A stretch of 64,000 nt of DNA from Rhynchonema sp. JSB1_4 (lineage: Eukaryota; Nematoda; Chromadorea; Monhysterida; Xyalidae): assembly GCA_030248065.1 (NCBI GenBank), contig JASAMV010003338.1, forward strand, positions 1 through 64,000, given 5' to 3'. The notes beneath the pieces were generated by a model. It was not told the origin of the DNA. It worked only from the letters and a program-made list of their open reading frames with translations, and made no database searches. The position numbers were made by a program, and so were the translations under genes. This document shows, one piece after another, positions 2,632 to 60,985 of this stretch; position 1 is the stretch's first letter, and each line of letters opens with the position of its first letter.

Positions 2632-2896
2632 GAAGGCGGCGATGAGGAGTTTTGGAGAGCACTATAATTTTGTGACCAGAGTAGAAGTTGCTGATGACTG
2701 ATGAGGTTCAGGTGCACGATGCAGGAGCATTGAATAACTTTTACCCCAGTCTGCATAACGTAACTTTGTGACATCACAAAATACAGTCAAACGAAGTTAA
2801 TCAACCCGCCCCGTCAGCCAAATGTTGATGCGGCCCAAATAATGTTTGCTGATGTCATACAGTCCAACGGAGCACCCTAACGAGCACAAACCGATC

Positions 2897-27816: not shown

Positions 27817-30800
27817 TCATCCGGAAGAGCCCAGGAAATCTTCGTCCTCGAATTCAGGCACATACGACGGGTCATCGTCTTCCTGCATTTCAACAGATCA
27901 TATGTTTGTACAGCCTTGGCCATACCAGTATATGCTTTGCTGGAATCCGGACCACGCCTTTTACGTGGCAACATTTGGTGATATTTAGAATCGAAAACTT
28001 GTTAAAAAGGTGTTTGCCGAAGAACTTTTACCTTGATCCCAATTAGCAGTTTTCAAAATATCGCTCAAAATTCTCACATCAGAAGTTAATGTGGCCGATC
28101 CGGACTCCACCACTACATGCCGGCAAGTTTTAGCGTTGACTTACGAGCAGCGCAATCTGTTCGAGACTCTTGCCAGCCTTTCGTTGTATCGCCGTCGTAT
28201 AGTGAATGTATTCCGGCAACGTCTGCAACAGATAATGCCAATGGTACGATGCGTGTTTGAACTCGCGTCAAACTATCAGCACTCACAGTGACGTCGATGC
28301 CCAAACGCTCAGCCTTCTTCTTCATTTGAAACTTGTACTTCAAACGCAGCGCCTCGACGTGATTTTTTCTGAGAATGAACACCGGATCGGTCAGCCATTC
28401 CTTTTTGAAGTCATCACGGGCACGAAGCACCCGTTCGTGATGTGCCACCATCTCCTTTTTCGTCATGCCCTGACGCACATAGTCGTAGAACGCACGCCAC
28501 GTCTGCAAACAGACATCTTTTGATTGACAAACCAACAACTCCTTCATTTTCATTGGAAGAATTAACGCGGAATCAAGATTCTCCTATGTCCCGCCCCCGC
28601 GTGTTTTCGAGCTTAATTTCACAATCTAGCTCATTCAGTTCCTTTTTTGGATCCCATCAGAAATAACAGTCGTGTTGGATACGCAGTACATAACACTAGC
28701 CTTTTGCAGCTCCATGTACCGTTCATCGCCAGGTTTGAGGCCGGCCACCACTGGATTTTTATACGGCTGGTAGTTCACATTCTCGCGCTTCATTGTCTAC
28801 AGAAAAAAAGAATGAATAAAAGTTAGTGAAAGGTTAGACTTCACCATCTGGTCTATCCTCATGATAGTGGTCTTGATCCGGACCTGTCATTTTCGGTCAC
28901 CAGCATGGAAATGTTGGAGGTTGACGTGAGATTGGGAATTAGGGTCAAAGATATACACTACACAGTATATTTTGAACTGTTGGAAGGTCGCCATGAAGAG
29001 AATGTACTGTTTGACTCAATCATCCATCACACACCGTCCAATCAGCGTGATTGTGTGCGCCTTTGGCCAAAATTCCTGCAACGCGCGACTTGGTTGAATA
29101 CAGATATCTGAATACCATCGGACAATTCTTCGGTGGCGTCAGCGTAATTCGGCCGCACGTCTTGCCCTTTTTGCCCCAACGTCTGTAACATGGAAATTCA
29201 ACAATTGTTATAGTAAATTTCTAATTTCGTTGCCTCATGCACTCTTACAGACGCAGGGAAACTCCCGTTCGAAGTCGAAGCAGGCAACGAGCTCAGCACA
29301 CAGTGAACAAGCCACGCAGCTGACACACACAGCTTGTGTGACTGAAACATTCGAAACGCGCACGAGCCAGCTGCGTGGCTTGTTGACTGTGTGTTGAGCT
29401 TGTTGCCTGCTTCGACTTCGAACGGGAGTTTTCCAGCGTCTGTAATAATGCATGAGGCAATGAAATTTGCTTACTTAGAAACTTACTATACCAGACCTGA
29501 CATGATCAAAAGCCACACATTCTCACTTCGCTATGAGACCGCTATATAACCCGCTATGCCGGTTACAAATAATAGTCACAATAATTAAATGGATAGGAAA
29601 TCAGAGAGGTTTGGGAACATTTGGAATCATAAAATATCATTCCAAAACGCTCACAGTAAGAGGCTTTCACTATTGTATACATATGCATGGATATACAATC
29701 CCACCACTCACTGACCTGGTCGCACAGCCCCACCATCCGCTGACGAGCGTCGGATCGCGTGTGAATGGTCGGCGAAAACCACGGAGCATTTTTGTGTCCG
29801 ACAACGCTGAATACTCGCCCATCCACGCCTTCCACTCTTCACTGCTGCCGATTCGAGCCAACAACTCAACAACATTCGTGCCATCCTCCTCCACTCGCTG
29901 TCCTGCAATCGGTGAACATGCGTAGAGCCCGCCGTTCATACATTCCGAGATTATCACCATCATTATGCACTCTATTACCAGAGAACTGTGCCCACGAGGA
30001 GACCCGCCTGGGGGGGCTGGTATAGGGGACTTTTAAGGGGGAGATACTGTGCCATACTAATTACACTAATTCCGTGTGGGTTGAATTTTTACTGGTAAAA
30101 ATGTGCACAAATCACGCACAGCACGTTTAGTCGACTTTCAGACATTCTTACCAAAAAAGGTACTTTTGGGTTAAATGTCGGGGGGAGACAGTTTTAGAGG
30201 AGAGGTACCATCCACAGCGCGTGGGCACGTATCGTACCCGTGAGCGGGTCCAAAAAGACACGAGATCTAAACCTATCGCTCGCGTAAAACACTACCAAAT
30301 GCACCCATGCACAGAGTAATCAAACAGATACTCACTGATCACTCGCGTGTCGAATATCTTTGGAATGTGCGGCATCTCTGTCGAGTCCGGTCTTGGCAGG
30401 TCACCCATCGAGGCGGCGGCAACCACGTGGTCAAACTGGCCATGTGTCATATCAAAGAATGGATTGCCAAGCAAGTCACTCGAAGACACCGTCGTTGAGT
30501 CACCGTCTTTGATCGGCGTTGTTAATGTTGATGACAGACTGCTCGCATTCGCACACTCTAGCTTGAGGCTCTGTAGTTATCAGACGTTTCCTGACAACTA
30601 TCAAACTCGGTGATCGGATCGGACAGATCACGTCAATACGAACGGACCACCCAAACCGATCCGAACACCAAGTATGATATCGACCCTGATGATCAGTGAA
30701 ACGTTGGCTTGGCGGGATAGGATATAGGTAAATATGATCCACAAACTAAAAACGTTTGCCACAGCCACAATTACAGGAACAGATGTCAACATTAGTACAT

Positions 30801-33800
30801 GATAGTCTTTCTGTTTTATATCAGTCTGGAAGCGGTACACAGAAAGTGTTTCATCATCGTGCATGGTCGACCACGCGGCTCAAAACATGCATGTTATTTG
30901 ATGGTTGCTGTTGCGATGAAACATTTGCTGTATTATGCTTGGACCGAGAATAAAATGAAGAACTATGTATATACATATCTACCACCAACCGTCCAACCGC
31001 CGTGATTGTGATCGCCCTTGACCTCAACAGCTGCGATACGGTATTCACTTGAGAGCAGCCATCTGAACTCAATCGGACACGGTGTTGTCGGCTGGCGAAA
31101 TTTGGGCCAAAACCTCAAAACATAAGGCGAGATGTCCACTTGTGTGAGGTTGTAAGAGCGGTTACAAAAACTCGGCTATATCGGATCGTACCTTGATAAC
31201 GTGTGACTTTCACGTGTGAAACAATTTTTTGAAATTTATTGATACAAGTAATTTTGACCGGCGCAAAACTCCATTGGAGACTGTACTGGCAGATGAAAAA
31301 AAAGCATTTTTTGAAAAAAAAACGTTTTTTGTTTTTTCCGAGACCCGAATATGTTCCCATATATTTCTGTGGATCGGTTTGGTTTTTTATCGGAAAAATA
31401 CCGGTTCTTTATTTTGACTTTGCCAAAATTTTTCTAACGCAAAACTGAACGCTTAGCGTTCTTCAAGAAACAACTTGCCTACACGACCATACTTTGATCC
31501 AAAATCTTCACATTTTTGGATTTTTTCCTCCCTGAGAATACTGGAAAAAATATTGTAAAAAACGTCTTTCCACGGAAAAAAAGAACGGTTCCTTATGACA
31601 GCAGATTCCAAAACCGCAGCAAATTACTTCTGGGCTTCTTAAATCAATAGCAACACAGTAAAAAACCTTACTATCCTCAGCTCAAACATGTAACCAAGGG
31701 AGATTCAATCTGATCACCGGTCAACGTTTCGAAACACACCTCGATCCACACTGATGGGTCATGCTGATGGCGTTGGGATCGGACCGTAATACACGACTGC
31801 GCACCTCCTTCATTTTGCTGTCGGACAGTTTGTAGTATTCCTGCATCCATTGTCGCACCTCCTCCTTGCTGCCCAATCGAACCAACAACTCAATAACGCG
31901 TTGACCGTGGTTGTCATTCAGCAACCCTATTAGTTTACGTGGACTATGACTCGGCTTATATACGAATCGCAACATGCTACTGGTCGGATACGAATCAGCA
32001 GTTTGCAGATGAGAAGCGTGAAATATCACAAAGTGACACGGTGGTCGGTCCGCGGTCTGACCTAAGTCACGTGACCTTTTCATTGATGGTATGGTATCCA
32101 GGAATTTCCTGCTGGCAACGAATTTCATCAATGAGTGTCGATCATCAATTATAGTTGTTGCAAAAGCCATGCAAAAATACCAAGGCAGCAATCTCCAAGT
32201 AGTGGTTATGCTTGTAAGGCGCATAAGCAACATAAATGGACTCACTGACAACTCTGGCTTCAACCGTGGTGGGAATGTGCGGACATTGTTTGGCATCAGG
32301 TTCAGGCAGGTCATCCATAGTGTCACGTGCAAGTGCAAAGTTGGTCGATCCCTTTCGCATATGGAAAAATGGATTGCCCTTTAGTTCAGTGCCCAGTCGT
32401 TCTGCAGTATCGTCGCCCGCCGCCCTCTGTACGTCAGCCCAGCCCAGCTTCAGACTCTGCAACAACAATCTGATGCTATTCGGAGATAGCATGAAACACA
32501 CCATCAGTATCAACCATTTCTGACTTATTCAAACGTGAAATAAGCACCAAACATCACGTTAGCAGCAACAACAATGCATTGGGTCTGCGTAAAATCATCT
32601 GAGTGTGGTGTTACCCCTCGGCATGGTGGCCGGGCCCACCCAGGCCGAGCTCAGATCTGCACAATTGGAGCCCACAAAGCCCAAACCCCCTGTGCAACAA
32701 CAACAATGCCCCAATATTGACCGACCGTCCAATCGCCGTGGTTGTGCTGGGCGACAACGACCACAGCAGCGATGTGATGTTCAGTTGAATAAAGCCATCT
32801 GATCTGGATCGGACACGGCATTGTCGGCCGATTGCTCGTCCATATTCTGAATAAGCTGCCTTTATTCGTCGGAACCAACAGAACACGATAGCCCAGTTGG
32901 CTGACTTCAAATCCTACAGCGTATCAAGACAGAAAGCTGGCAAGCCAACGTACTTCGATGCGCAACAGTAGACGGCGGTGGACAGATGGGGAGTGGATCG
33001 GAAAGCGCGATGTCTCAGTTCGTGCATCTTGCTGTCCGACAACCGATTGTATTCTTGAATCCATTCTCGCATTTCGTCTTTGCCGCCGACTCGCGCCAAC
33101 AATTCAATTACTTTACAACAGTCCGCTTTGTCGTGCACTCCTGTAAAATCCCTTGTTTGCGAGTTTCCGAGAAAACGGGTTGAAAGACGAACTGCACCTT
33201 TTGGCCTGGAAAATATCGGAAAAAACTGTTTCTTCCAAAAAAAAAACTGAACGACGAATTACTCGATGTGAACTCCGGTCAATGTCTGTTGTTTCGTTCC
33301 GAAGAAACCTGACAAGAAAGGTAGACAAACTCACTGACAACTCTGGTATCCAAAATATCGGGAACATGCGGCAATTGCGCGCGGTCTGGTTTCGGCAGGT
33401 CATCCCAGGAGGCCAGAGCCAATGCGTGGTTGATCCGGCCACATCGCATGTTGAAGTAACCATTATCACCCAAACGGTGCATCAGTGATGAGCCGGTTCG
33501 ATGTTTCGAATGCTTCTGAGTGGACTGGGCTGCGCGACGTGGCCGTTTGCGACCGACCGAAATGTCGGAGCTGTCCGATGCGCGCTCAAAATCTCCGTCC
33601 GAATCCTCGACCAACGCCAGTTTTAGGTCATCATCATCATCATCCTCCACTTCCATCTTCACAATGCCGCCAATCGAGATCACGGTGGATTCGTTGTGCG
33701 CATTCGCATACCTGTACAGTGCTCCGCAAACTGAACATAACTTGACACAGTCTATCCAAATTAGGGTGGCACAATCGGGCGGCAGTCATTTTCGGGTGGA

Positions 33801-34209
33801 TAAATGCACATGGAATAGTGGCTGTACAAAGAGTTCATTACAAGAGTAACGGCAAAGTTATTTTTTGAAACGTGTTTGCAAAAGCTCTCGTAACGAGTTG
33901 ATCTTCAAATGCCTTTGTGTAATTATGCCATGATCAACACCAACCAGGTATCGGTGACATCGGTGCACGCGAACACACGACGACGCGATGGTGGATTGGG
34001 TCTGAATGAAGGATGGTCGATTCACAATCACAGGTACACCATCATCAGCCAAGTCAGCACAGCACCCACCTTGTAACATCGTGTTCGTGGCCAACTTTGA
34101 CGTGCGATTCAATCAATGCCATCGGCAATAACGCAGCGCAGAATTCACATTCGCAATAGAACGCTGTGCCCTCCTCGGTCAGGCCACAATCGCTCAAACG
34201 AATGTCCAT
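27817..34209 (-). CDS. zinc-module protein, tandem paralogue 1 (three cassettes)
   Basis: Not a family I recognise. Fifteen exons on the minus strand: 34070-34209, 33945-34001, 33335-33711, 32954-33140, 32726-32846, 32246-32456, 31740-31926, 30990-31113, 30336-30570, 29716-29902, 29035-29182, 28701-28796, 28287-28502, 28145-28222 and 27817-27882. They join without a frame error into 809 codons. Residues 1-47: Cys/His cluster (FYCECEFC…H-x5-H-x-H). 66-150: acidic with a basic patch (RKRPRR). 150-658: three cassettes of A (F-x-M-x4-NHA…DLP-x-PD…TRVVS), B (VIELLARVG…W-x2-EY-x2-LSDSKM) and C (RW…CPI-x3-W…H-N-H). 659-809: tail with WRAFYDYVRQGMTKKEMV, basic helix KAERLGID and acidic end DEDFLGSSG. 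C fits C-x22-H-x-H, like WRKY/FLYWCH fingers, so DNA binding is my inference. The exon ending at 28701 has a GC (GCTAGT) donor. Confidence 0.85.
29230..29461. repeat. 232-bp palindromic insertion
   Basis: The arms TTGCCTCATGCA…GACGC and GCGTCTG…TGCATGAGGCAA are inverted copies. They continue inward through CCCGTTCGAAGTCGAAGCAGG and its complement to a short loop near 29.34 kb. It lies between the 29716-29902 and 29035-29182 exons of zinc-module gene 1. It is probably a fold-back MITE; no clear flanking duplication. Confidence 0.85.
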
Positions 34210-34640
34210 TGATGCTACCTTCACAAGGATGAGAGAATGTTGCTTTCCTCGGATTGATTCGGAACGAAAGGTAGAACACTTTACTGTCCTCGGCACATTC
34301 AGTGACCAGTGGCGTCATTAGCTTAGAACACAGAACAGATTAAAAGGTGAATAACAATTTTATCCACGATCCGAGTTGTTAAAAGCAAAAACAAATTAGC
34401 ACATAACGTATGTACATACATGCACAAGCACAGCCAAGTGATTGACTTTTACCGACCACAAACACGACCATGACCATTCGACAGCTCGTTAAAAAGAGCG
34501 ATACATCGCACTAACAAAAAAAATAAAAGAAACAAAAATTGAATTGACACATGAAAAACATGAAAAGTTTGGAAACATTTGGTTTGGAATATACGAATAC
34601 AGATCGCCATAAAAATGATAAATGCATTTTATGCGTTCAA
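34210..34640. other. spacer between zinc-module genes 1 and 2
   Basis: About 430 bp separate the start codon of gene 1 from the stop of gene 2 on the same strand. It should hold the gene 1 promoter and gene 2 3' UTR. It is A/T-rich with no clear motif. The part next to gene 1 resembles the sequence upstream of gene 2 (near 39.40-39.57 kb), as expected of tandem duplication. Confidence 0.5.
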
Positions 34641-37600
34641 TTACAATTGCAATCCAGAGTATCCTAAGAAATCTTCATCCTCGAATTCGGGCACATACGA
34701 CGCGTCATCGTCCTCCTGCAAATATGGGCGCCGTCGTACAATAATCGACATGGAAGTTTCAGCGTTGACTCACCAACAGTGCAAGTTGTTCGAGACTCTT
34801 GCCTGCTTTTCGTTGTATCGATGTCACGTAATGAATGTACTCAGGCAGCGTCTGAAAAGATTCCCAAACAAACGATGGAAGTATTGAAAGCTTCAAGCTT
34901 CAGTCCGCCAGCTGTAAAATAATGTAAAAGGAAGGCAAAGAACGCTGCATTTTGTCTGATATAAAAATGTTGAGTTACTCACATCAAGATCGATGCCCAA
35001 ACGCTCAGCCTTCTTCTTCATTTGATATTTGTACTTCAATCGCAGCGCCTCGACGTGATGTTTCTTGAGAATGAACACCGGATCAGTCAGCCATTCCTTT
35101 TTGAAGTCATCGCGTGCACGAAGCACCCGTTCGTGACGTGCTACCATCTCCTTCTTGGTCATGCCCTGACGCACATAGTCGTAGAATGCACGCCACGTCT
35201 GCAACAATAGCTTCATACATTGAGTCGGAATGCAATTCCTTCACAAAAATATGCCAAAGACTTTTTATTCCTGTATGGCCAACTTTTTGCATTTCCATAT
35301 ATCGTTCATCGCCCGGTTTCATGCCTGCCAACAATGGGTCTTTAAATGGCTGGTAGTTCACATTATCGCGCTTCATCATCTGCAAAGTAAAAGAATACAT
35401 TCAAGCCATGGCGGAAATTCTGGAGGCTAACGTCAGATTGTGATTAGCGTCAAAATGACCACTACACACATTTGCTGAAAAAAATCACGTACCCACATCC
35501 ACACACTGTTGCCGGAAAACCCACACCTACATATTTTGAACAAAAAAGCCTGATTTCGTATCTTTTGACGTTAGGCCCAGATAAAAATTGTTTGGTATGT
35601 ACAAGTCCAGGAACTTCAGTTGAGTCTCTGAGCGAAACGTTTCTGTGAGTTTTATATTTGAACAAAATTAGCAATTTCATCAGAAAATTTTTCTCTTATG
35701 GTGTGGGTGTGGATCTCCCACACAGTGCCAGTGGTAGTGTCACACCCACACAGCCACCTCGCTGGAGGTATGGGCAATCCATCGGCTCATGGCACTTTTT
35801 ATACACACGGCGCATGCAGCAGCGCACGCCATTTTCTGAACAAAATGTACACTTTGGGTGAGTGTCATACTTTGATGGCAGCTTTTTAATTCATCCGGTT
35901 TTCATTTGCTGCTTGCCATAACACTTTTTTGCACTGTTGCAAAGTTTGGGAATGTTTCAACGGATAACTGCAGAGAATAGATGCATTCATTGACGGCAGT
36001 AATGCAGCATGCAGCGTGTGCGTGCGAGTGCCATGAGCTGGCGGATAGCCTATACCATACACCCATATCCATGCATCCACACCCACGTCCGACACCTACA
36101 CCCAACCATCCATCAGTAATGAATCATCACGCACCGTCCAACCAGCGTGATTGTGTGCGCCTTTGACCGCAATGCCGGCGACTTGTGACTTGGTTGAATA
36201 TAGATATCTGAACAACATCGGACAATTCTTCGGTGGCGTCAGCGTAATTCGACCGAACGTCTTGCCCTTTTTGCCCCAACGTCTGCAACAATTCCACAAC
36301 TGCTATTGGTCGCACAATGACTATATGAGAATCCATCCCCATATTTTTCCTACATCGGCAAGGAGGGTTTCTGGCGATTTTTTTCAAATTGAATCAGGTT
36401 TTGACAAGGAGTTATTTTCTCTTTCTTTTCCCGCTTTATTTCGGGAGTCATCAACGTGTGTGTGCTGTCACGCATAAAGCGTGTAATACGTGGCTACAGT
36501 AACCCGATCCCGAACCATTTCGGTTGCGCAGAATTCAGGGTGAAACTTCTGCACACGTGTGTTTCTCATTCTTCTCACTGATAAGCATGCAAAGTTCTTG
36601 TCAAAACCTGGTCCAATTTGAAAAAAATGCCAAACATCCGCCTTTTCAATGCAGGAAAATTAGGGGGATGGATTCTCATATAGTCATTGTGCGACCAATA
36701 TAATATAATATTTGTTATGCGGCAGGCATACAACGCAAGTGCACCCTTCCCGTCTGGTGGACACAGCGTTTGGCCTGTTCGTTCTTGGGTACAACACCGA
36801 TCGACGAGCAACATCTCAGCCGCAGGCCAACAGCACCCATTATCCACTGACCTGGTCGCACAGCCCCACCATCCGCTGACGAGCGTCGGATCGCGTGTGA
36901 ATGGTCGGCGAGAACCACGGAACATTTTTGTGTCCGACAACGCTGAATACTCGCCCATCCACGTCTTCCACTCTTCGCTGCTGCCTATTCGAGCCAACAA
37001 CTCAACAACGTTCGTGCCGTCCTCCTCCACTCGCTGTCCTGCAATCGGTCAAAATGCGAACCGCCGAACCCACCAACCGACGTTAGGATGGAGAGCAACC
37101 TCAGCTTGTAGCAGACATCATGCTTCGTCAAACTGAACTGGTCAAAAAACCAACCTGTCAAATTGCAAGGATATGCTTGCAGATGTTGGGTGATATTTTC
37201 GAAACGGTGTAAAGGTCAGTTGGGTGTAAATGTCGGTGGAAAGCTCGGTCGACAGCACAGTGTGATAGACCTCGGTGTAAACTTGAAACATTCTACGTTA
37301 ATAACAGGCAATGTTTCACGTTTACACCGAGCTACGCCGACCGAGCTTTCGACCGAACTTTACGCCAACCTTTACACCCAACTGATCTTTACACCGTTTC
37401 GAAAATTCCACCCATTGTATAGCTACCGTATAACACGACCGACCTTGACCAATATTGCTATCCCAAAGCGCAGCATCTGCACATTGACAGGCTGCAGCAC
37501 TCTTGGATGAATACGCGCAGGAAATTCAGTCCAATTATTGCCAAACAGATACTCACTGATCACTCGCGTGTCGAATATCTTTGGAATATGCGGCATCTCG

Positions 37601-39373
37601 GTCGAGTCCGGTCTTGACAAGTCGCCCATCGAGGCGGCGGCAAGCACGTGGTCAAACTGGCCATTCGTCATGTCAAAGAATGGATTGCCAACCAGGTCAC
37701 TCGATGACACCGTCGTTGAGTCACTGTCTTTGATCGGCGTTGTTAATCTTGATGACAGACTGCTCGCATTCGCACACTCTAGCTTGAGACTCTATAATTA
37801 TGAGTCGTTTCTAGGCGACAAGCAAAAATGGATTAGCCCCGAAATGAACGTCTACTGAAATTCATACAAATCTTGGGTGCGTATCGAAATGTCAAACACC
37901 CCGATTTTTTTCAGTACCAAACGTATGCACCAACCGTCCAATCGCCGTGGTTGTGTTCGCCCTTGAATTCGACAGCAGCGATACGGTATTCACTTGACAC
38001 AATCCATCTCACCTCGATCGGACACGGCGTCGACGGTTTATTTTTCGTCCAATGTCTGAATAATGTGATGCGTTGCGTTTGTGCACTGAAAGGACTGAAA
38101 AAAGACGACTAACAAACTGCTCAAACTTAAGCATATCAACGAGACACGTCTACATTTAAGCCTAAAGCGCGATGCAGGCGACCACAGGTATGGTCAAAAA
38201 CGACCCGCTCATGAATCATCGCAACTGAAAAACCCACCTTGATGAACACAAATGTATCCAACTCAATGAATCATGATCACAATGAAAATTTCGAATTTTT
38301 TTCGTCATTTTGCTGTCGGACAACCGGCAGTATTCACGCATCCATTGATTCATCTCATCTCGGCTGCCGACTCGCACCAACAATTGAACAACTTTGGTTC
38401 CATCCTCATCGTCAGACACGCCTGAAAATCATTGGACTGACAAGACAAGTAAAACCGTAAAAGTGCACAACTCAGTACACTAGACAACAATCGAATTAAA
38501 AATGCTATAACAAGACAAGATGACTCACTGACAACTCTGGTGTCCATAATACCGGGAACATGCGACAAATGGGACGGGTCTGGTTTCGGCAGGTCATCCC
38601 ACGAGGCCAGTGCCAGTGCGTGATTGATCCGACCACGTCGCATATTGAAGTATCCGTTATCATCCGGATGTTGCATTAATGCTGCCGAGCCAGTTCGGTC
38701 TTTCGAGTGGCGTGACCTCCGAGTGCTGCTGCCAGGCTTCGCAGTGCGACGTGGCCGTTTGCGACCGACCGAAATGTCGGAGCTGTCCGATGCGCGCTCA
38801 AAATCTCCGTCCGAATCCTCGACCAACGCCAGTTTCATGTCATCATCATCATCATCCTCCTCCACTTCCATCTTCACAATGCCACCTAACGAGACGATTT
38901 CGTTGCGCGCATTCGCATACCTGTAGTGGTGCGGACGGATATTATAATTTGATCGCCAAACAGTTCTAGAGGCACGATCGGCCACACCGTCATTTCTTGT
39001 CTCCAGTACATTATGGTATACGGCAATAATGCCAAATTATGATTTTTTCGAAAGATTTTCCGGATCTCAGGTGCAAATGTATTTTTGTGCCGTGACACAC
39101 CTAGTACGATATAGTCACCCACTTACCAGGTATCGGTGACATCGGTGCACGCGAACACACGACGACGCGACGGTGGATTGGGTCTGAATGAAGGATGGTC
39201 GATTCACAGGTACACCATCATCAGCCAAGCACCCACCTTGCAACATCGTGTTCGTGACCAACTTTGACGTGCGATTCAATCAACGCCATCGGCAATAACG
39301 CAGCGCAAAATTCACATTCGCAATAGAACGCTGTGCCCGCATCGCCCAGGCCACAATCTCTCGAACGATCCAT
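34641..39373 (-). CDS. zinc-module protein, tandem paralogue 2 (two cassettes)
   Basis: Twelve exons: 39237-39373, 39127-39183, 38529-38920, 38238-38421, 37935-38055, 37557-37791, 36852-37038, 36135-36282, 35284-35379, 34983-35198, 34774-34851 and 34641-34715, giving 641 codons with no frame error. The plan is that of gene 1 but with two A-B-C cassettes: exon 37557-37791 resembles the third A of gene 1, so the middle cassette is absent. Both C exons keep C-x22-H-x-H. The N-terminus lacks one codon (MDRSRDCGL versus MDIRLSDCGL). The tail ends DEDFLGYSGLQL. Exon sequences are very close to gene 1, notably WRAFYDYVRQGMTKKEMV; introns are unalike. Function unknown; nucleic-acid binding is inferred only from the zinc spacing. 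Confidence 0.85.
37195..37406. mobile_element. 212-bp MITE with 36-bp inverted ends
   Basis: The left end ATTTTCGAAACGGTGTAAAG and the following 16 bp recur in inverse at the right end, with one mismatch in 36. Inner segments (AAGCTCGGTCG / CGACCGAGCTTT) are also mirrored. It sits in the intron between exons 37557-37791 and 36852-37038 of gene 2. Confidence 0.85.
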
Positions 39374-40150
39374 TGAAAAGCCGACTACCCAGAGAATGTT
39401 GGATGTCTATGTGGCATGCCTGACAGAGGCTGATTCGGTTGGAACGAAATATGGAACATTTTACGACGTTCCGTGGCACATTCAGTGACCATTTGTGGCA
39501 TTCGCTTCGGAAGCAGAACAATTAAAAATGAATAAAAATTTTATTCACGAACCGAGTTGACAAATTTGCACTTTACGTATGTTTATGCAGTAGCACAGCC
39601 AACAGTCAAAATCTGCGAATTACACTATATGCTGTATACAATAATCCTTGCCTTAAACCGGGCAACCGGATATCGCATGCTCTCAGAATCCGGCCGTTTG
39701 CAATAAAATGTCACTGTGCATAATCCGTGATCACAAAAACAACGTTCAAACAAAATAAAGCTAAAATTGTCACAATTAATTTTTAAAATTTTGTTTTCAG
39801 GAACAAACGCGCGCTTGTGCCGACTTTACGCTCACCCTTTTGATCCGGCAACAGCAGAACATTTAGTCGGGAATGCAACCAGCTCAACTGCCAACACCCA
39901 CGTGCGAAATGTTTCACAACGTGTGATTTTTCAGCGCACTGTTTCTTGTCACGTTGTCTGCTGTGTTTGGTAGAAACGGCGAGCGTAAGACGGCACAAGT
40001 TCCTGTTCGTTCCTGAAAGCAATTTTTTAAACATTAATTTTGACAGTTTTACCGTGTTTTATTTCGTTTGATCGATGTTTTTGTGATCATTGAACAGATA
40101 TGGTCAAATTTCATAGTAAAAAAGCAAGCATGAGATATTCGGTTTCCCGC

Positions 40151-40805
40151 TTTAAAGGGGAACTTGCACATTCCTAATCGCCTTTCAAGTTTTACAAGTG
40201 TTTAGACAGCAATGTGGGCATCACAAAAGTCAAATCCCTTTGTACAAAGTCTCAAACATGTGCCCAGGAGAAGCATATTAAAAGGAACCGTCGGGAAGAA
40301 AAATCGGCGCGGACCGGCCGAATTTCTACCTGCGCATTCAGGCACATTGCCTGATCAAAAAGCTCTCAGGGCGACGGAATGTTTCGCACGATTTTTGAAA
40401 CTCACTAACTATAGAATTTCGCTTTTCTTTATATTTCGAATTTCAACGAATTGTTCCAGCGTGTCTGCTAAATGTTTCATGCTCTGCTTGTCACGCTGGA
40501 ACAATTCGTCGAAATTCGAAACATAAAGAAAAGCGAAATTCTATAGTTAGTGAGTTTCAAGAATCGTGCGAAACATTCTGTCGCCTTGACAGCTTTTTGA
40601 TCAGGCAATTTGCCTGAATGCGCAGGTAGAAATTCGGCCGGTCCGCGCCGATTTTTCTTCCCTTCGGTTCCTTTTAATATGCTTCTCCTGGGCACATGTT
40701 TGAGACTTTGTACAAAGGGATTTGACTTTTATGATGCCCACATTGCTGTCTAACCACTTGTAGAGTTTGAAAGGCGATTAGGAATGTGCAATTTTCCCTT
40801 TAAAG
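40151..40805. repeat. 655-bp inverted repeat, arms ~300 bp
   Basis: The left arm from TTTAAAGGGGAACTTGCACA to GAATTTCAACGAATTGTTCC is mirrored by GGAACAATTCGTCGAAATTC … TGTGCAATTTTCCCTTTAAA with few differences. The loop is about 40 bp (near 40.46-40.49 kb). It has no coding capacity. A transcript would form a long hairpin. Confidence 0.92.
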
Positions 40806-40964
40806 GCATGGATTTGTTTTCGACGATTTTTGTCAGGAAATGGAGACTAGGCATCAGAAACAAAGGTTCAGCACCCGCAACCGGATTTCCAGTTCGGTGC
40901 TCCGTGATGTTTCACGGATGCACAAGTTTTACATTTTGTCACGAGAAATAAAACGACAAAAGGT

Positions 40965-41435
40965 TTCAACCCTTCTTTGCAAAGTATAAGCTGAGTCAAT
41001 TTCCCATATACCCGAGGTTTTATACTCAGAAATTTCTTCGTTGAATGTGATGCAAAGCATTGTGAGAAAACCCACGTGTGATGAATGGTAAACGAAGCAA
41101 TCCAAAATATCAAGCCATATTTAGCCACCCTTTTCTTTTTCGCTGTAATTTTAAGCGTTCACGAGACAAGTGAAGCTGCATTTGATATGTCAACCAAATC
41201 TGCCAACAAATATGTGCACACGCGACCGGAACTTTGTGTTAGCTGTGTGGCGTTTCAGAAATAGAAGAGCACAGTTGTAATTCATATTTGCTGCGAGATT
41301 TTGTTGACGTTGTTGTTTCTCACAATGCTTTGCACCACATTCAACGGAGAAATGTCTGAACACAAAACCGTGGAATATCGTAGATTGACTCAGTTTATGC
41401 TTTGCACAGGAGGGTTTCAAACTTTTTTCCGTTTT
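40965..41435. repeat. diverged inverted repeat
   Basis: The stretch TTTCAACCCTTC…GCAAAG…CTGAGTCAAT…TGAATGTGATGCAAAGCATTGTGAGAAA is mirrored, imperfectly, by TTTCTCACAATGCTTTGCACCACATTCA … GACTCAGTTTATGCTTTGC … GGGTTTCAAA. The arms are ~120 bp with about 200 bp between them. It looks like an old fold-back element. Confidence 0.7.
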
Positions 41436-42081
41436 TCTTTTCATGACCGATGCATAGACTCCATGACACAGAACCGATCACCCAACTGAAAATCAAATTT
41501 CTGAATCTATGTTTCTGATGCCTTTTCTCCATTTCCTGAAAACATAGCCGAAAAAAATTCCGCCAAACATTCTTTGTATACTCACTGTAAAGTTCGTGTC
41601 GAATGCCAGACAGCTCATTTTCTTGGGTGAAAACGGAGAAGACAGCAAAGATTAATCACAGCAAAGAGCCGCATGAAAATTTGGAAAAAACTGCATGCTC
41701 AAATTGGCAACTCACAAAATCGAGAGGGTCAGTTTTGGAGTAAAATCAAATAGTGGCACCAAGTTTGATACCATCCTCAATCAATTCGGACCGCTGCATG
41801 AAGCTGGTCGGAATTTGATGCCGATATTTTACTTTAATTCAAAAGTTAACTTCTAGATCGCGCTATTTGGCTAGTCTTTGAAGACGCACTTTTTTGCAGG
41901 TAATATCAAATAGGTGCTGCTGCTTTTATTTCCATCCAAGAAAATGGGACTGCTACGTGACGTTCGACACACACTCTAACCACAATTTACTCCGTTCCTT
42001 GTGACGCTTTATGACTGCTCAAAGCGAAACGAGTCAGCAAGGCCAACATGACCAAGCAGAAAAGCTAGACCGTGACCAGTT

Positions 42082-45000
42082 TCATGCGTTCAATTCCAGT
42101 TGCAATCCCGAAGATTCCAAGAAATCTTCATCTTCGAATTCAGGGACATACGACGCGTCATCGTCTTCCTGCAAACATGGTTGTTCAACAGATGCTCACA
42201 AATAGCGTCATTGTACAATAATCGATATGGAGGTTTCGGTGTTGACTCACCAACAGTGCAAGCTGTTCGAGACTCTTGCCTGCTTTTCGTTGTATCGATG
42301 CCATGTAATGAATGTATTCAGGCAGCGTCTGAAACAGACTGGTGATGACAGACTGGCAACGTAAACAAGGCATTGCAAATTGCTGGTCTTTATATAAAAT
42401 TATATTACAGATTGGTTACTTACGGCGATATCGACGCCCAGACGTTTAGCTTTTCGTTTCATATGAAACTTGTACTTCATCCGCAAAGCCTGGACGTGAT
42501 GTCCTTTGAGAATGAACACCGGATCGGTCAGCCATTCTTTTTTGAAGTCATCCCGTGCACGAAGCACCCGTTCGTGACGTGCTACCATCTCCTTCTTGGT
42601 CATGCCCTGACGCACATAGTCGTAGAACGCACGCCACGTCTGCAACCATTGCTTCACGCACTGAGTTGGGCACATTTTTTGTTTGTTCAAAAACAGGTCA
42701 TAGTTTTTATTTTGCAATGGAGTCTGTTTCTTCCAAATATTTGTAAATCGTCCAAAACCACAGAATGTCAGGTCTAAACTAAACTTCAATGTTTTAAAAC
42801 TGTTTTTATGTACACGTGGGCAAGTAATAATTGTTTTTTTCTTCCGACCACATGAATATCGTCCCGGCACTTCCAAAAATGTAAGATTCCTCTTCATTTT
42901 TTTAAAAAGGGTCCTTTTCTACCAACCTTTTGCATTTCCATGTATCGTTCATCGCCCGGTTTCATGCCAGCCAACAATTGGTCTTTGTACGGTTGGTAGC
43001 TCATATTATCGCGCTTCATCGTCTGCAAAGACGAAAACAAAAACAAAGCTATGGCTGACATAATACATCGACAAGTTAAACTTTGCTCTCGTTTGACCTC
43101 GAGTAGCAGGCGACCACTAAATAATTGGCGCGCTACCGTCCAATAAAAAGTGCCCTACATTTCATTCAAAAGTCCATTAGTTTTGCTTGACGGGCATTGC
43201 AACTGCCAAACACATGATTCTTCAATTACTGCGCATCTATTACCGTCCAATCTGGGTGATTGTGTTCCCCTTTGATCATAACAGCAGCGACGTGCGACTT
43301 GGTTGACAGGAGGAATTGGAAATGAATCGGGCACTTCTTCGGCGGCGACATCATAATTCGGCCATGTGTCTTGCCTTCATTACCCCAACGTCTGAAAGAT
43401 CAAGCAATGATTAAAATAGCTCTGCCACCTTTTCAGGTGTGTATGCACTTGCAATTATGAAAGAGCCGTTTTTTCAGCAACATCTATTCCTATGGCTGGC
43501 TAACTTCGTCGCACAGCTGAACGTCACTCGAATCATCGTGGGATCGACTTTGAACGGCAAGCATGCTCCTTGGAAGATTTTCATGTCCGACAACAACGTG
43601 TACGCTGCGATCCACTGCTTGCTCTCGGCAAAGCTGCCGACTCGTGCCAACAATTCGACGATTTTAGTCCCATCCTCCTCCACTCGTTGTCCTGCAACAA
43701 ACATGCAGTGCACAGTCTTTGTAGTGACACACAAAGCCGATCATATCACCAGGAAGAGTGTAAATTGACGATTCATAGTGAAAGGGCACAACTATCAAAA
43801 TAACAACATCAAATAGGCAGCAGATTTATTAACATGTCAGTCATCTAGTCAATCGATGTCGGTAACATTCAACATAACCGACTCGGATCTCAAAAACCAC
43901 AAGACTCACTGAGGAATCTCGTGTCGAAGACAGCGGGAATGTGCGGAAACAGCGCCGGGTCCGGCTTCGGCAAGTCGCCGATTTCGGCCAATGCCCTTGC
44001 GTGGTTAAACTGTCCGTAACGCATGTTGAAGAACGTGTTGCTGTCATTTAAGTCAGCCTGCGATGACGTATGGCCGTCGGTCGCTGTCGATGCTGCCAGA
44101 CATCCCAGTTTGAAGCCCTGCAATCGCAATCTACATGTACTCAATCTGGTTGCTGTTTCTCTCGAGTATTGCAAACCATTCACCAATTTTTATTCTCGGT
44201 TCTGAATTGTGTGACGAAGCACCATTGCATGCACATCGGTAATGAGCACCAAACAGTCAACGCATGCACCAACCGTCCAATCGCCGTGGTTGTGTTCGCC
44301 CTTGAATTCGACAGCAGCGATACGGTATTTACTTGACACAATCCATCGCACCTCGATCGGACACGGCGTCGGCGGTTTACTTTTCGTCTTCCAACGACTG
44401 AAAAGGACAAATTTGACAAGAATGACGCATGTGAGAGGCCGAGGAAATGACGGGGTGATCAAAAGGTAAAGCAACAATTTAGAACCGATTTGCAATCACC
44501 TTAACAACGTTATTTCGTGATTTTGGGAAATCTTTCAGAATAATTTGGAAAAAAGTTTTTTAAGTCGGAAAAGTAAAACCGTATTTTCCGGCCTCAAAAT
44601 TTTTTGAGCCGACGAGTGCAAAGCACATTACGAAATTTCATGGCGCATTGAATACTGAGAAAACAACCGCACTTTGATCCACACACATGCATTAAACTGA
44701 ATGTGTTGCGATCCGTGCGAAAATATCGAAATTTCGACTGCGTCATTTTGCAATCGGACAACCGGCAGTATTCACGCATCCATTGATTCATCTCATCTCT
44801 GCTGCCGAGTCGCGCCAACAAATCAACAACTTTGTTGCCCTGCGCGTCGTCAAGCACTCCTGCAACCGCCGAGAGATGGGCTTTTTTCAAAGATTTATTG
44901 CTGCAATTTGCACCGATGGTCAGCCCAGCCTTTGACGTGCAAATGATTTTGGATTTTGCAGATGATTTTGGACATTCTACACGCAACGTTGCAAATTGCA

Positions 45001-48000
45001 TCCATCCATTTTGTTTCCAATCAATGTCGTGCAAATAAGACTTTAACGCACTGACAACTCTGGTGTCCATCGTTGTGGGAATATGCGGCAAATGTTCGGC
45101 ATCGGGCTGCGGCAATTCATCGATTTTGTCACGGACAAGTGCAAAGTTGATCAATCCTTTTCGCATATCAAAGAACCAATTAGCCGCGCTGGATGTGGAC
45201 GGCACCGACAGTTGCGTGTCCAGCTTGAAAGCCTGTATGTGAACAAGGCACTGTGGAAATTTTAGGGACACGTCTGACTTGCCATGAGTCTGTGACTTTA
45301 TTGCACTGTCACAAACAACTGGCACCTTTTTTATCCGGTAGTTCCGACCCGTTCTCGAAATTATAACAACCAGTGGCTTGTCCGACAGATGTAAATTAGC
45401 AAAAAAAAGAGAAAATGAGATTACGAGAAACGAGAGGTAAGAGGCCTCATTTATATCACAAGTTAAAAACGCATACACCCACCGTCCAACCGGCGTGGTT
45501 GTGTTCGCCCTTGAATTCGACAGCACCGATACGGTATTCAGTTGACACAATCCATCGCACCTCGATCGGACACGGCGTCAGGGGCTGATTTTTTGTCCAA
45601 CGTCTGAACCATGAGATATGCTACATACACTACGTTAGGCAAGAAAAAGACTGAAAAAATAAATTGAAGTCGAACTTTGTTACGAGCCCATCAACAAACA
45701 GCGCCTGTCCCATTTGTGCATAAGGCCAAAGGGTATCGTCATACCTGGGGTTCAAACGAGGATCCCGAGCCCGAAAATTTCAAAGTAAATCCCGATGCCG
45801 GACGCTGATCCCGATCTTGAAACTTTTTCGGATTAGCAGCCTTTTACCATCCGTAAATTCTTTTCGTTACTTTGCACTCATAATTGTTCATTTTTTCATC
45901 TGATGGCATATTTTGACTCAAAAGCATTTATTTTTACATCTGTTTCATTAAGGGCGGACTTAGGTTGAGTACGGAATCCGGAAATATTTCCGGATGAATT
46001 TTGCGGAACACGGAATTAACCTTCAACCAGATTTCACTTCACTGTGTTTTCAAAGGAATGCAAAGCATTTCCGAGTTCTGCGTTTTTCGTATTTCATCCG
46101 GAAACCGTAATCTGGAAATATTTCCGGAAAATGCAGATGCTGTTCCGCATCCGGAAATAGATCAAAGTTTTTGCATGTAAATATTTCCGGATTCCGCGCT
46201 CAACCTAAGTCCGCCCTAACAGAGGACTTACAACTGATGTCGAGTGATAAAATTTGAAAAACAACCACAAAATGTACCAGTGCCAGTGCGAGGGTTTTAC
46301 TCGTCATAATTGCGTGTTTTCAGGAATAAATGTTCAAAATAAGGCTTCACAGTGTTGTATATTCAACCATAAACGTCGTACACAGATGCCCGATACAACA
46401 ACTGGCTTTACCACCCCCCCCCCAATGTAAGGACTTCAAGTTGGGGGCTCTTTTTTGGGTGTTCTTTTTCACTGGGGCCGTTTAGGGGGCTAGGCTTTTG
46501 GTGGGCTCTATTTTATGGACCACGGTTCGGATTAATGAACAATCATCGCGACTAAACAACTCACTTTGATGCACACTGATATAAAAAACTGAATGTGTTG
46601 CGCTCCGAGCGAAAATGTCGAACTTTTGATCGCGTTATTTTGCAATCGGACAATCGGCAGTATTCACCAATCCATCGTTTAATCTCTTCCTTGCTGCCGA
46701 CTCGCACCAACAAATCAACAACTTTGGTACCATCTGCACCGTCAAGTGCTCCTGAAAATCACTGACGACAAGACGGTCAATTCTTTTTCAGGACACAAAA
46801 CAACAATTTAAATGAAATGTTTGACAGAAGATGACTCACTGACAACTCTGGTGTTCATAATACCGGGAACATGCGCCAAATGGGACGGGTCCGGTTTCGG
46901 CAGGTCATCCCACGCGGCCAGTGCCAGTGCGTGATTGATCCGACCACGTCGCATGTTGAAGTATCCGTTATCATCCGGACGTTGCTCATGTGTGGACGAG
47001 CTAGCGCCATTCTCAGTGCCTGATATTCGAGATGACTTTCCTGTTCGTGACACTTTTTTCCGTTTCAACGCGGCATCGGCATCCTCAGTGCTGTCTCGTT
47101 CCAGACAAGTTCGTTTGAAGGACGGACGGTAGTCAGAAGTGTTCGAGTCGCCAGAAGAATCATCATGATCGGCCGCAAGGGCATCGTCCGATAGAAAATC
47201 GCGTAACGCCTGTTCCACACCATCATCATCATCATCACCTTCAATCTTCACCACAATATTGTCCATATCAATGTTGCATTGGTCCACATTTTTGTACCTG
47301 CAACAATGTTCTTGTACTTTAAAAATGATACAATCAGGCGTGAAAGAATTTTTGGGATGATCAACCAAGTAGGACGTGGTCATCCGTCTGCCACCTATGG
47401 CGGGCTGGACGTCACCTCTACGCTGTGCTCGCTATCAACGCCGATGCCGCCGTGTGCTCCATATCGCCGGCCAACGACGTCAACTAACATTTCCCAAACA
47501 ATGGAATCACGTGCAAGCCGCAGCCACGAGTGGCTCCACATTGGACTATTCGCCTACAAGGACAACGTGGGAAGGGGCGATGGTCCTCTTGCGCGGCTGG
47601 CCACCGCAAAAAATATGCACAGTGGACTCACAGATGGACTAACAAACAGTCTGCTTATAGAACTGCCTTTATGTTGCAGACCACAGGGTCTGGTACTATA
47701 CTTGCGTATTTTTCCGCAAGATATATTTTTGAAAAAAAACCGTTTTTTTTCAAATATTTTTCCAGTACTTATGGATACCCATGGTCCAAAAACGCCTATT
47801 TTGGAGAAAATTTCGTCGGGAAATGACCTGAAACAGGCTAAAAATGCACTTGGAGATCACAAAGTGCTAATTTTGAACTGTCAAGTACCGATTTACACTG
47901 GTTTTGACAAAATCCTCTCGCAACCTTGGAAAATATCACGGAAATTTTTGGAAAAAAACCGTTTTTTTTCAAAAATTGCCACTTGGAAAATAAAAACGTA

Positions 48001-48549
48001 TTTTTCCGGGCCTCGGAAAAAAACGGTAGGTACTGCACCGTCCAACGATGACGTGGTTTTATGTCATTTAGTTTCTGTCTGCACATCTGTGTCTGTCTTC
48101 CGTGATCTCGTCCACCTTCTCACGCTCATTCCTGTTTTGGTTTTGCATATATTTTTCAGTTCCGTAAATTCCACTCCGTTTTGTATTAATTTTTGTTTTC
48201 GTAAATTTCACACTCAAGTCTTGTAATTATGCTTCTTCCACATAATTGTCTGCTGTTATTTTTGAGTGGGCGTCGACGCAATAAACCAACCAACCAGGTA
48301 TCGGTGACATCGGTGCACGCGAACACACGGCGACGCGATGGTGGATTGGGTCTGAATGATGTTTGAGTCAAATGCACATCATGGTCAACCGTGTCATAAC
48401 AGCACCCACCTTGCAACATCGTGTTCGTGTCCAACTTTGACGTGCGATTCAATCAACGCCAACGGCAATAACGCAGCGCAGAATTCACACTCGCAATAGA
48501 ACGCTGTGCCGACCTCGGCCAGGCCACAATCACGCAGACGAATGTCCAT
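42082..48549 (-). CDS. zinc-module protein, tandem paralogue 3 (three cassettes)
   Basis: Fifteen exons: 48410-48549, 48295-48351, 46840-47297, 46565-46751, 45483-45603, 45052-45232, 44673-44859, 44274-44397, 43910-44117, 43505-43691, 43244-43391, 42927-43022, 42424-42639, 42251-42328 and 42082-42168, giving 824 codons with no frame error. The N-terminal Cys/His cluster (FYCECEFC) and second exon (ACTDVTDT) match genes 1 and 2. The acidic exon is longer and different (GDDDDDGVEQAL, then RKKVSRTGKSSR). There are three A-B-C cassettes; all C exons keep C-x22-H-x-H. The tail has ERYMEMQK, WRAFYDYVRQGMTKKEMV, LPEYIHYMASIQRKAGK and an acidic end DEDFLESSG. It is the most diverged of the three in cassettes A. 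RIOK3 ends only 352 bp upstream on the same strand. Function unknown. Confidence 0.85.
45951..46217. mobile_element. 267-bp MITE, ends AGGGCGGACTTAGGTTGAG
   Basis: The left end AGGGCGGACTTAGGTTGAG is mirrored exactly by CTCAACCTAAGTCCGCCCT. Inside are several TCCGGAAATATTTCCGG palindromes. It lies in the intron between exons 46565-46751 and 45483-45603 of gene 3. No clear duplication flanks it. Confidence 0.85.
47697..48027. mobile_element. right-damaged copy of the TATACTTGCG MITE
   Basis: The left end TATACTTGCGTATTTTTCCGC and the interior (GGATACCCATGGTCC, AAAACGCCTATTTTGG) match 13970-14353. The right end stops at AAAAAACGGTA without CGCAAGTATA. It lies in intron 2 of zinc-module gene 3. 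Confidence 0.75.
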
Positions 48550-48901: not shown

Positions 48902-51900
48902 TTACGATTGTTTGTCCGCAGTACTGCCAGGCTGCAATATGTCATCACCCGCCGTCACGAATCGACGCGCGAACAACTCGCGTTCTTCCTGTAAAAAAAT
49001 CTGAGTGGCTCAAAGTTGTCATTTTTAATCGACATACATAAGATCAAAGTGGACAGGCACAAAACCAGCTACATAATGTAACCATCTATGGAGGTATGAT
49101 CTGGATCAAGGAATAATCTGCACAGGCAGAGTGCCAGACAAACGACATATTGTCCAGCTGCCAATCAAAATGTTAGCGACAGAGTCACCATAACGAGGCC
49201 AGCCTGTATCTGCGACCTGCAACAACATTTCGGCCAACTCCTCGTCCTGCTCATAGCGCTCCGATTCGATGTGCTTTTTCAGATCGGCGTCCGCCGGATT
49301 CTTCTTGTCATCGCGCAACTCGCGACGTCGATTTTCGGTCAGGAAATCGTCCAGCTGCAATCGACTTGATGACTGGGATTTTAATGATACGAAAAGAACA
49401 AAAAGAAAAGGGTCACATACGTCGGCGACAAAAGTCTCGTCGGAAGGCAGCGTCAGCCCGGTGATTTTATTGAACAATTCCCGCACGCTCGGCAAATCAA
49501 TTAGTCCCTGAATAAGGCATAGTTTAACAAAAAGAGAGTTCATGATGGTTCAACAACAAGAATAGCCAGTAACATAAAACTGCACCTGTTTGCAGAAGAA
49601 CTGTCGAATGTTCATGCAATCCTTTGCGAGAAATATGAGGGCGCGAGGATGGGACAGATCAACCGACTGTGAAACATCGATGAAATGGCATTTGTCTTTG
49701 TGATACAGAATGTTGTATTCGGACAAGTCAGCGTGCACGAGACGACATTGCACGTACATTCGAGTCATGATCTGTAGAAATCGATAAATCGTGTCAAACG
49801 ACATCTGAAGGAATGTCGTATCAAGCTTGATGATCGGTACGGTCCGGTCTTGGTTGTTGCCCTTTGTATCATGAGCATTTAGATACTTTCCGATGGCACT
49901 AATTTCGAGCAGCACAATAGTTGCTGAAAGGCGTACCTTTCAGGCTGGTCAAAAGCACTTTCATGCTTTACTTGGCGTCAGTAAATCTCGAAACATCTTC
50001 AGTGGAACGTCAAACTGGACGTACGATGCCCAAATGTACCAGTCCCACCTTGACACACTGCTCGTACGCATCACTCAGCTGCTCCTCATCCAACCCGGCA
50101 TTCTTCAGTTTCGGCGCCGGTTTTCCGTCCTGTCCGATGAATGACAGCACCAAAACGTGATTCTTCATTTTCACCACCGACGGACACGGGATGCCCGCGC
50201 GGCACATGCTGCACACAAATGAATGGCATAACCACGACAATTATTGTTATGCTATGGGGTGGAACCCAACCGATTCAAATTCAATCGTTCCTTGTCGGCC
50301 CAGAACTTGAGCAATTTTCGCGGATTCCTAAACCGATAGTCATCCTTGACGTAATCGATTCGATTCTTGAACTCACTCAGTGTCGTCTTGAAGATCTTGA
50401 TGGCGCACTCATTCGGCACCTCGACTTCGTTGTCCGGATCCCTGTATTGACAAGGCCGATTTCAGACGCGTGTGACGACCACTGACAGACTTGTGTGCGC
50501 AGCGCAGTGATCTTTGTGAGAATAATATGGCTCGCATCAAACGTGACGAACGCATAAGGTTATGCAGTGGTGTCGTTGGGGGGGGGGGGGGAAGGGGGGG
50601 GGTTACCCCCCCCCTAGTATCCGGTATCCGGTATCTTGATTTTTTCACCCAGGGGTATCCGGTATCCTGACTTTTTGTCCAGGGGTATCCTACCCTAAAA
50701 TTTTCCCGAAAACCGTAAAAATCGCCCATTTTTACCTCTAAAATGCGCAAAATCGCTTGCTGGCGCAAGCATAACCCCAAAATGACCATTTTTTGCGCTT
50801 CCAGCACCAATTTTGCTCAATTTTCCTCTAAAAAATTGACCTTTTTTGAACAACCCCCCCCCTGGGTATCCGAGATTTTTTATTTTGGGGAGCAACCCCC
50901 CCCTGGTATCCGAGATTTTTCATTTTGAGTATCCGGTATCCGAAAATTTTGGATTTTGGGTATCCGGTATCCTGACTTTTTGATTTCCCAACGACACCAC
51001 TGAGGTTATGTGAATTTTATTAATGAAGCATCATTCGATATTTACTGAACTATACCACTAATTTTGACCACTGTACGTTATTCCCCGTAGTGGGCGAACC
51101 ACGTTTACGTCGGTCAGTGTAGTGGCTGGGGGGGGGATGGGGGGGATTCCCCCCCTAAGGAGTAGGTACCTTGCAACCACCCCTTGGGGGGGATGGGGGG
51201 GAAGGGTAGGTACCTTGCAACCACCCCGGAGGGTACCTTGCAACCATCAATTTATGGTTTTTATAGGCAAAAATGGGTGTTTTTCGACCTCAAAACCCCA
51301 AAAATCGCGCGCTCCGCGCGCAAACCTCCATATAATAGGTATTTTAGGCAAATTTTCGGCCAAAATGCAAAAAAGTACCAATTTTTCGGCCAAATTTGCA
51401 GTATAATGCATGCAAAAAACACCCTTTTTTCGGACCTCAGGGGTACCTTGCAACCTTCCGGAGGCTGGGTAGGGGGGTACCTTGCAACCATCTGGATCCA
51501 TCCCCCCCAAGGGTACCTTGCAACCATTTGCCTGCCACTACACTGACGTCGGTCAAAATGTAGTGGCAGCAATGAATATGATACCCCTAATTCAATAAAA
51601 GTCACATACGCCAAGGCAGATCCGATCCGAAAACATTGCCAAGCTTGATTAAGATAATGTTCTAACCGTCTCTGTTTCCAGTGAGCGCCTTGGACGTGCC
51701 CGGTGCATTCTCACTATGTTCTGATGCACCATCTCCTGTCCGTGAAAACAGGACGAAATGGGGCAAACATTTTGCTGCTAGGTAAGCCACAAATACACAG
51801 CAAACTACCTGCATCCAAAGGCGTGCAGCACGGTGGACTCCTTTCCGGTGGCTATCTGTCCGCCAATTGAGTCCAGCAGTCCGCTGTCAACCATTTTGAA

Positions 51901-55831: not shown

Positions 55832-57532
<1,701 letters not shown>

Positions 57533-60941: not shown

Positions 60942-60985
60942 AATACCTTTTTATAAAGAATTTTTTCCAAAAAGGGGCAAAAATA

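Follow-up and report, generated by a model that had tools for sequence, protein, structure and literature searches.

The window, a DNA stretch of 64,000 nucleotides, carries three adjacent genes on the minus strand, which we rebuilt from its sequence: G3 (48549-42082, 15 exons, 824 amino acids), G2 (39373-34641, 12 exons, 641 amino acids) and G1 (34209-27817, 15 exons, 809 amino acids). These numbers are identical to those of the original prediction, which had described an adjacent, in-frame trio of 15, 12 and 15 exons and 809, 641 and 824 codons (G1, G2, G3). The spliced frames hold zero internal stops and zero frame errors, and 38 of the 39 introns are GT-AG, the remaining one (GC-AG, after 28701 in G1) having a GC donor. 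Each chain runs from a C2H2-like finger and an RRxFA motif, both overlooked in the earlier description of an otherwise correct exon order, through a linker and A/B/C finger units (three in G3, two in G2 and three in G1; eight in the window) to a tail, T1 to T4, that ends acidic. The exons are as follows.

48410..48549, minus: G3 exon 1, start codon and C2H2-like N-terminal zinc finger (C-x2-C-x11-H-x4-H)
48295..48351, minus: G3 exon 2, RRRVFACTDVTDTW motif (L)
46840..47297, minus: G3 exon 3, acidic/basic linker and A segment, finger 1
46565..46751, minus: G3 exon 4, B half, finger 1 (first Cys)
45483..45603, minus: G3 exon 5, C half, finger 1 (C-x22-H-x-H)
45052..45232, minus: G3 exon 6, A segment, finger 2
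44673..44859, minus: G3 exon 7, B half, finger 2
44274..44397, minus: G3 exon 8, C half, finger 2
43910..44117, minus: G3 exon 9, A segment, finger 3
43505..43691, minus: G3 exon 10, B half, finger 3
43244..43391, minus: G3 exon 11, C half, finger 3
42927..43022, minus: G3 exon 12, tail T1
42424..42639, minus: G3 exon 13, tail T2, helical
42251..42328, minus: G3 exon 14, tail T3
42082..42168, minus: G3 exon 15, tail T4, acidic end and stop
39237..39373, minus: G2 exon 1, start codon and C2H2-like N-terminal finger
39127..39183, minus: G2 exon 2, RRRVFACTDVTDTW motif
38529..38920, minus: G2 exon 3, linker and A segment, finger 1
38238..38421, minus: G2 exon 4, B half, finger 1
37935..38055, minus: G2 exon 5, C half, finger 1 (model: beta hairpin between zinc ligands)
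37557..37791, minus: G2 exon 6, A segment, finger 2
36852..37038, minus: G2 exon 7, B half, finger 2
36135..36282, minus: G2 exon 8, C half, finger 2
35284..35379, minus: G2 exon 9, tail T1
34983..35198, minus: G2 exon 10, tail T2 (model: three helices)
34774..34851, minus: G2 exon 11, tail T3
34641..34715, minus: G2 exon 12, tail T4 and stop
34070..34209, minus: G1 exon 1, start codon and C2H2-like N-terminal finger
33945..34001, minus: G1 exon 2, RRRVFACTDVTDTW motif
33335..33711, minus: G1 exon 3, linker and A segment, finger 1
32954..33140, minus: G1 exon 4, B half, finger 1
32726..32846, minus: G1 exon 5, C half, finger 1
32246..32456, minus: G1 exon 6, A segment, finger 2
31740..31926, minus: G1 exon 7, B half, finger 2
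30990..31113, minus: G1 exon 8, C half, finger 2
30336..30570, minus: G1 exon 9, A segment, finger 3
29716..29902, minus: G1 exon 10, B half, finger 3
29035..29182, minus: G1 exon 11, C half, finger 3
28701..28796, minus: G1 exon 12, tail T1 (GC donor)
28287..28502, minus: G1 exon 13, tail T2
28145..28222, minus: G1 exon 14, tail T3
27817..27882, minus: G1 exon 15, tail T4 and stop

Pooled over whole codons of homologous exons (Nei-Gojobori), dN/dS is 0.288 for G1-G2 (625 codons), 0.338 for G1-G3 (780 codons) and 0.329 for G2-G3 (620 codons); the trio is under purifying selection, and its spliced frames are thus constrained at the protein level. Together with the same exon order recurring in ten further gene models on another contig, C3398, these ratios mark the trio as real genes beyond chance and rule out chance or mis-joined exons. 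The lowest values within the trio lie in the tail exons (0.03-0.17, save T3 of G2-G3 at 0.30) and the widest range in the B and C exons (0.21-0.73).

Searches of the genome with the G2 tail (T2-T4) returned 32 matches on 7 contigs, and a divergent T2 query gave 51 matches on 9 contigs. The conserved C-terminal tail proposed at the outset is borne out. The model of the G2 T2 exon has three helices. An FCH/GMIP-like tail match (5 of 14 members, best E value 2.3e-5; in one full-length member 15.1 bits against a cut-off of 27) was set aside as common helical composition. Helical and acidic-ended, the tail probably serves dimerisation or acts as an effector.

The trio belongs to a large multi-zinc-finger family arranged in tandem clusters. 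A single-locus oddity is ruled out by the N-terminal finger, which has 85 matches at E ≤ 0.01 on 29 contigs, a count that may stand for fewer genes, as several pairs with identical scores on two contigs are perhaps alleles, and that divergent copies may escape. The ten C3398 models (423-615 amino acids) all lie on one strand and follow the exon order of the window. One has a single finger unit and the other nine have two; in eight of those nine, C runs on into the next A with no intron between them. The openness and phases of these models are partly by construction, since the exon finder imposed the window exon phases and forbade junction stops (a pass without the latter rule gave stops in 5 of 10 models); the exon profile scores are independent of the imposed phases. 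Module dN/dS on this contig is 0.09-0.64, computed for four close genes and for nine of the ten genes (the one-unit gene omitted), with most module dS means above 1 and no difference between fingers and tail. Intergenic gaps measure 225-336 bp in eight of nine cases, and acceptor-like sites precede 4 of 13 start codons against a 31% background, an absence of excess that lends nothing to an operon. More divergent genes carrying the N-terminal finger lie on C2699, C1861 and C1125, and several of those on C2699 and C1125 have a pair of T2-like domains. The lineage-specific expansion originally inferred from the trio is amended accordingly, the trio being one branch of a much larger family.

From their sequence, we read B and C as one predicted zinc finger split by an intron, with A preceding it as a leader; the A-B-C cassette first proposed keeps its segments and is amended accordingly, B and C being two halves of one finger. 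We collected 30 fingers (8 from the window, 19 from C3398 and 3 from C1125), leaving out a B exon of C3398 that had no C partner and the C2699 fingers, since their C exons scored below the pairing limit. All 30 carry C-x22-H-x-H. The upstream Cys is aligned in 23 of the 30 and invariant across 12 hand-picked fingers, mostly 12-22 residues before the second Cys, and the HNH motif mostly has a G directly before it. The conserved leader resembles LPxPDPxxxPxIPxxFDTR, and the region N-terminal to the upstream Cys varies in length between fingers while the zinc ligands stay constant. A model of a single window C exon forms a hairpin with both strands between Cys and HNH.

AFT, FAR1 and WRKY are members of one superfamily, WRKY-GCM1, whose fold is a four-stranded zinc-bound beta sheet. 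Searched blind against Pfam at E ≤ 10, the 30 fingers matched 15 families: AFT in six fingers, FAR1 in four, WRKY in one and 12 others once each. The AFT, FAR1 and WRKY matches are all sub-threshold (best E values 0.011, 0.0021 and 0.1, respectively; the bit score, known for one, is under its cut-off), and 30 shuffled fingers gave none of the three, only nine other families once each. Against the PDB, one finger profile placed WRKY33 on top (E = 0.079) with viral L polymerases close behind, and a second did the same (E = 0.066) with a reductoisomerase and a designed protein ranking above AFT2. A full-length profile run against the PDB returned AFT2 (E = 0.23) and WRKY33 (E = 0.35) as the only matches at E ≤ 1. 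Because three member families of one superfamily match blind, the fingers likely belong to WRKY-GCM1, no individual match being significant. The WRKY/GCM1/FLYWCH link first drawn from C-x22-H-x-H is therefore upheld in the spacing and, at sub-threshold level, in the blind matches to AFT, FAR1 and WRKY, all three missing from the shuffled control, but not for FLYWCH (PF04500), which is absent from the 15 Pfam families.

Nor do the fingers fall into WRKY proper or FAR1/FHY3. WRKY proper has a WRKYGQK-type motif and short Cys-Cys spacing; the aligned fingers show no such motif, and their spacing is the longer one given above. FAR1/FHY3 proteins carry MULE and SWIM domains, neither of which was matched in G2, G3 or six family members, and FAR1 itself appears in the four fingers only. 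Whole G2 and G3, the two trio chains searched, matched zero Pfam families at E ≤ 5, and the six family members received no known-family assignment and no transposase domain at E ≤ 1.

These searches weigh against a reading of the trio as parts or recent relics of Mutator-like (MULE/Phantom) transposons with an N-terminal FLYWCH-type finger. WRKY-GCM1-type fingers are known in such transposases, and FAR1, which is transposase-derived, is among the weak finger matches. Excerpts of one paper describe a nematode protein of this kind, Tm1 of Meloidogyne, with FLYWCH and MULE domains (PMC3169594); the trio shares with it a WRKY-GCM1-type finger, but lacks any MULE or other transposase domain in the proteins searched. 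Its many introns, the presence of more than one finger in each chain, the tandem clusters on a single strand and the dN/dS ratios far under 1 do not suit a mobile element. We reject an active transposon on the 12-15 exons and on the domain missing from G2, G3 and the six family members, and judge transposon parts or recent relics very improbable; an ancient origin by domestication is possible.

The N-terminal exons form a second recognisable unit. The ligands of exon 1, C-x2-C-x11-H-x4-H, are invariant in 13 of 13 aligned genes, with no Pfam C2H2 match at E ≤ 10; the matches that did appear, C1_4 and XAF1_C, are weak, occur in one of 13 members each and are not believed. On C862 (1 of 1 fingers), C5202 (1 of 2) and C921 (3 of 5), 176-1397 bp separate the N-terminal finger from an RRxFA motif further downstream, and in the 28.7 kb read there we found no A, B, C or T2 exon at E ≤ 0.5; the opposite strands of the scanned loci matched neither RRxFA nor the finger. 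As the pair heads genes with other bodies, it seems to behave as a common module and is probably one for protein contact or recruitment. Two of ten open frames scanned in loci with the N-terminal finger, both on C921, matched RYYR-CCHC (PF23674) sub-threshold (E values 0.0012 and 0.021). The window proteins G2 and G3 did not match that family, and a genome search with its model gave zero matches, as did its controls.

Beyond this genome, neither G2 nor an alignment of six proteins (G2 with five of the C3398 models) found anything at E ≤ 1 among 5.8 billion proteins, with 8000 candidates scored in each case; the search relies on shared five-residue words and annotated proteins, so diverged or unannotated relatives would escape it. 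As a control, a Ran-like exon of the same window had 4513 protein matches at E ≤ 1e-10, drawn from sources that include nr, UniRef and eukaryote sets; eukaryotes are therefore represented in the collection, Ran being a far easier target. The earlier impression that the whole protein fits no known family accordingly holds across Pfam (G2, G3 and six members) and this collection, and the family is apparently lineage-restricted and undescribed.

Within the family, finger content turns over. In a midpoint-rooted FastTree of the 30 fingers, first and second C3398 fingers mostly fall apart (both fingers of gene 9 lie in the second group), and all eight window fingers nest together inside the second-finger group. 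Their confinement to one of the two groups suggests that the window genes probably lost the first finger class and re-duplicated the second. Between G1 and G2, the last cassette has low dS (A 0.19, B 0.10, C 0.25) against 0.82, 1.11 and 1.38 for T1, T3 and T4, which hints at a cassette exchange; it is only suggested, since exon 1 (0.16), exon 2 (0.07), A1 (0.32) and T2 (0.34) are likewise low and the T exons are short.

We propose, with a probability of about 0.62, that the trio belongs to a large, apparently lineage-restricted family of multi-zinc-finger proteins that carry WRKY-GCM1-type fingers and work in the nucleus as DNA-reading regulators. The N-terminal C2H2-like finger and RRxFA motif would make a protein contact or recruit a partner, the one to three WRKY-GCM1-type fingers per chain would read DNA, and the tail would take its dimerisation or effector role. 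Tandem duplication and finger-cassette turnover could then yield new DNA specificities on a constant frame, the likely task being to regulate transcription or chromatin, perhaps at repeats or at further targets that change quickly. We infer zinc binding, DNA binding, nuclear location, recruitment and a regulatory role on these grounds; repeat silencing is one possibility on which we draw no conclusion.

The WRKY, AFT and FAR1 families bind DNA, and several diverging fingers per chain fit a longer DNA site. Both points stand against fingers that contact protein or RNA instead, with the family in a small-RNA or signalling pathway, which we think rather unlikely. WRKY proteins touch DNA through the region before the upstream Cys, the very part whose length varies here, which speaks for that alternative, as do some FLYWCH isoforms of Mod(mdg4), described as lacking direct DNA binding (PMC3169594, in excerpt).

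By eye, GRKRPRR-like basic stretches adjoin acidic runs in the trio proteins, and no signal peptide is apparent at the N termini of window and C3398 proteins. Large lineage-restricted tandem families often serve reproduction, toxin-antidote systems or host interaction, and the fingers could be structural in such a fast-evolving task; the basic and acidic stretches with zinc fingers favour a nuclear protein, and with N termini of this kind we regard the alternative as decidedly improbable.

In their fold, the fingers most likely follow a known type. The superfamily (WRKY, AFT, FAR1/FHY3, FLYWCH and GCM) has in common with the worm family the C...C-x22-H-x-H ligands, an HNH usually after G and the modelled hairpin between the second Cys and HxH, whereas one to three fingers per chain, each intron-split in the window, the 12-22 Cys-Cys spacing, the leader, the N-terminal finger and the tail set the family apart. 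What appears new is the plan, N-terminal module, tail and scale, none of which we found in Pfam, the protein collection or the open-licence literature.

KRAB-ZNF, ZAD-ZNF and fish FZNF proteins follow a plan of a shared N-terminal module and then finger arrays. The worm family resembles them in its clustered duplicates and common module ahead of differing fingers, but has WRKY-GCM1-like fingers rather than C2H2 arrays and an extra helical tail; the likeness would be functional only, as exon 1, G2, G3 and six family members gave no Pfam match to KRAB or ZAD. Tentatively, and with the odds against it, the shared module might recruit one silencing or activating machinery while interchangeable DNA-reading bodies direct it to dozens of targets; this would be a system of KRAB-ZNF type that arose independently from another finger fold. 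In that reading, some clusters have bodies made of one to three WRKY-GCM1-type fingers, and in others the bodies are cysteine-rich or unrecognised. Large clustered zinc-finger families are a main animal route to new DNA-binding specificities, often against mobile elements. According to excerpts of a survey, ORFs with at least five C2H2 fingers number below 10 in most nematodes, nematodes show no correlation between zinc fingers and retroelements, and ZAD proteins reportedly do not target transposons specifically (PMC10547256). If true, a nematode with dozens of clustered genes on a different finger fold would have reached such a solution independently, in a phylum reported to have few tandem C2H2 genes (PMC10547256). 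The family would also be one that neither Pfam nor a very large protein collection recognised here, and the shared module would offer a direct handle on partners. Ctenophores also expanded such fingers in one animal lineage (16 FLYWCH genes in each of two species; PMC10027918), but that is another phylum, the worm family has no FLYWCH match, and the A-finger-tail plan goes unmentioned in the passages available from that paper.

The exact canonical SL1 22-mer has zero matches in the 204 Mb genome, and the host probably does not use it. The cuticle-collagen N-terminal family, which is nematode-specific, has 57 genome matches, all above the cut-off, and thus identifies the host as a nematode.

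Another contig of the same genome, C3398, carries ten same-strand gene models of the family, with finger units and tail, whose spacing is operon-like: within C3398:1-60000 (L009-L014), eight of the nine intergenic gaps between these tandem models measure 225-336 bp. The motif AATAAA occurs in two of the nine, and acceptor sites upstream of the start codons, checked for an operon reading of this cluster, showed no excess. An eleventh gene copy on this contig, at about 2.5-5.9 kb, is headless.

Match scores are identical on two further contigs, C2699 (L018-L020) and C4817 (L021-L022), which suggests unmerged alleles or assembly overlap, so that gene counts are inflated. The N-terminal C2H2-like finger is also common to L025 (C5202) and L024 (C862), where it heads bodies in which repeated WLPx...Y motifs were seen by eye; a Pfam scan of five frames from these two contigs gave weak matches only, none of them close to a cut-off.

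Within the window, a minus-strand frame beside G3, one gene of the multi-zinc-finger trio, matches a RIO1-type kinase (49550-49939; Pfam RIO1, E = 1.9e-27; RIO1 in a PDB search, 8.1e-20). The frame at 49106-49549 (-), next to G3, had zero matches in a Pfam scan and may contain later exons of this kinase gene. At 56816-57310 (-) lies a Ran-like GTPase exon (Pfam Ras, E = 2.3e-10), whose top protein match is named GTP-binding nuclear protein Ran.

Between G3 and its neighbour G2, an inverted repeat at 40150-40805 has 314-nt arms, 95% complementary, around a 28-nt spacer. This and the smaller inverted repeats listed here are possibly foldback elements.

Smaller inverted repeats and tRNA gene in the window
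29223-29467, inverted repeat, in an intron
36304-36700, inverted repeat, in an intron
37187-37414, inverted repeat, in an intron
7340-7412, plus strand, tRNA-Met, anticodon CAT

Open frames at 175-2661 (-) resemble LINE reverse transcriptase and RNase H, with a YADD motif spotted by eye, and another fragment of putative LINE-like sequence lies at 60471-60950.
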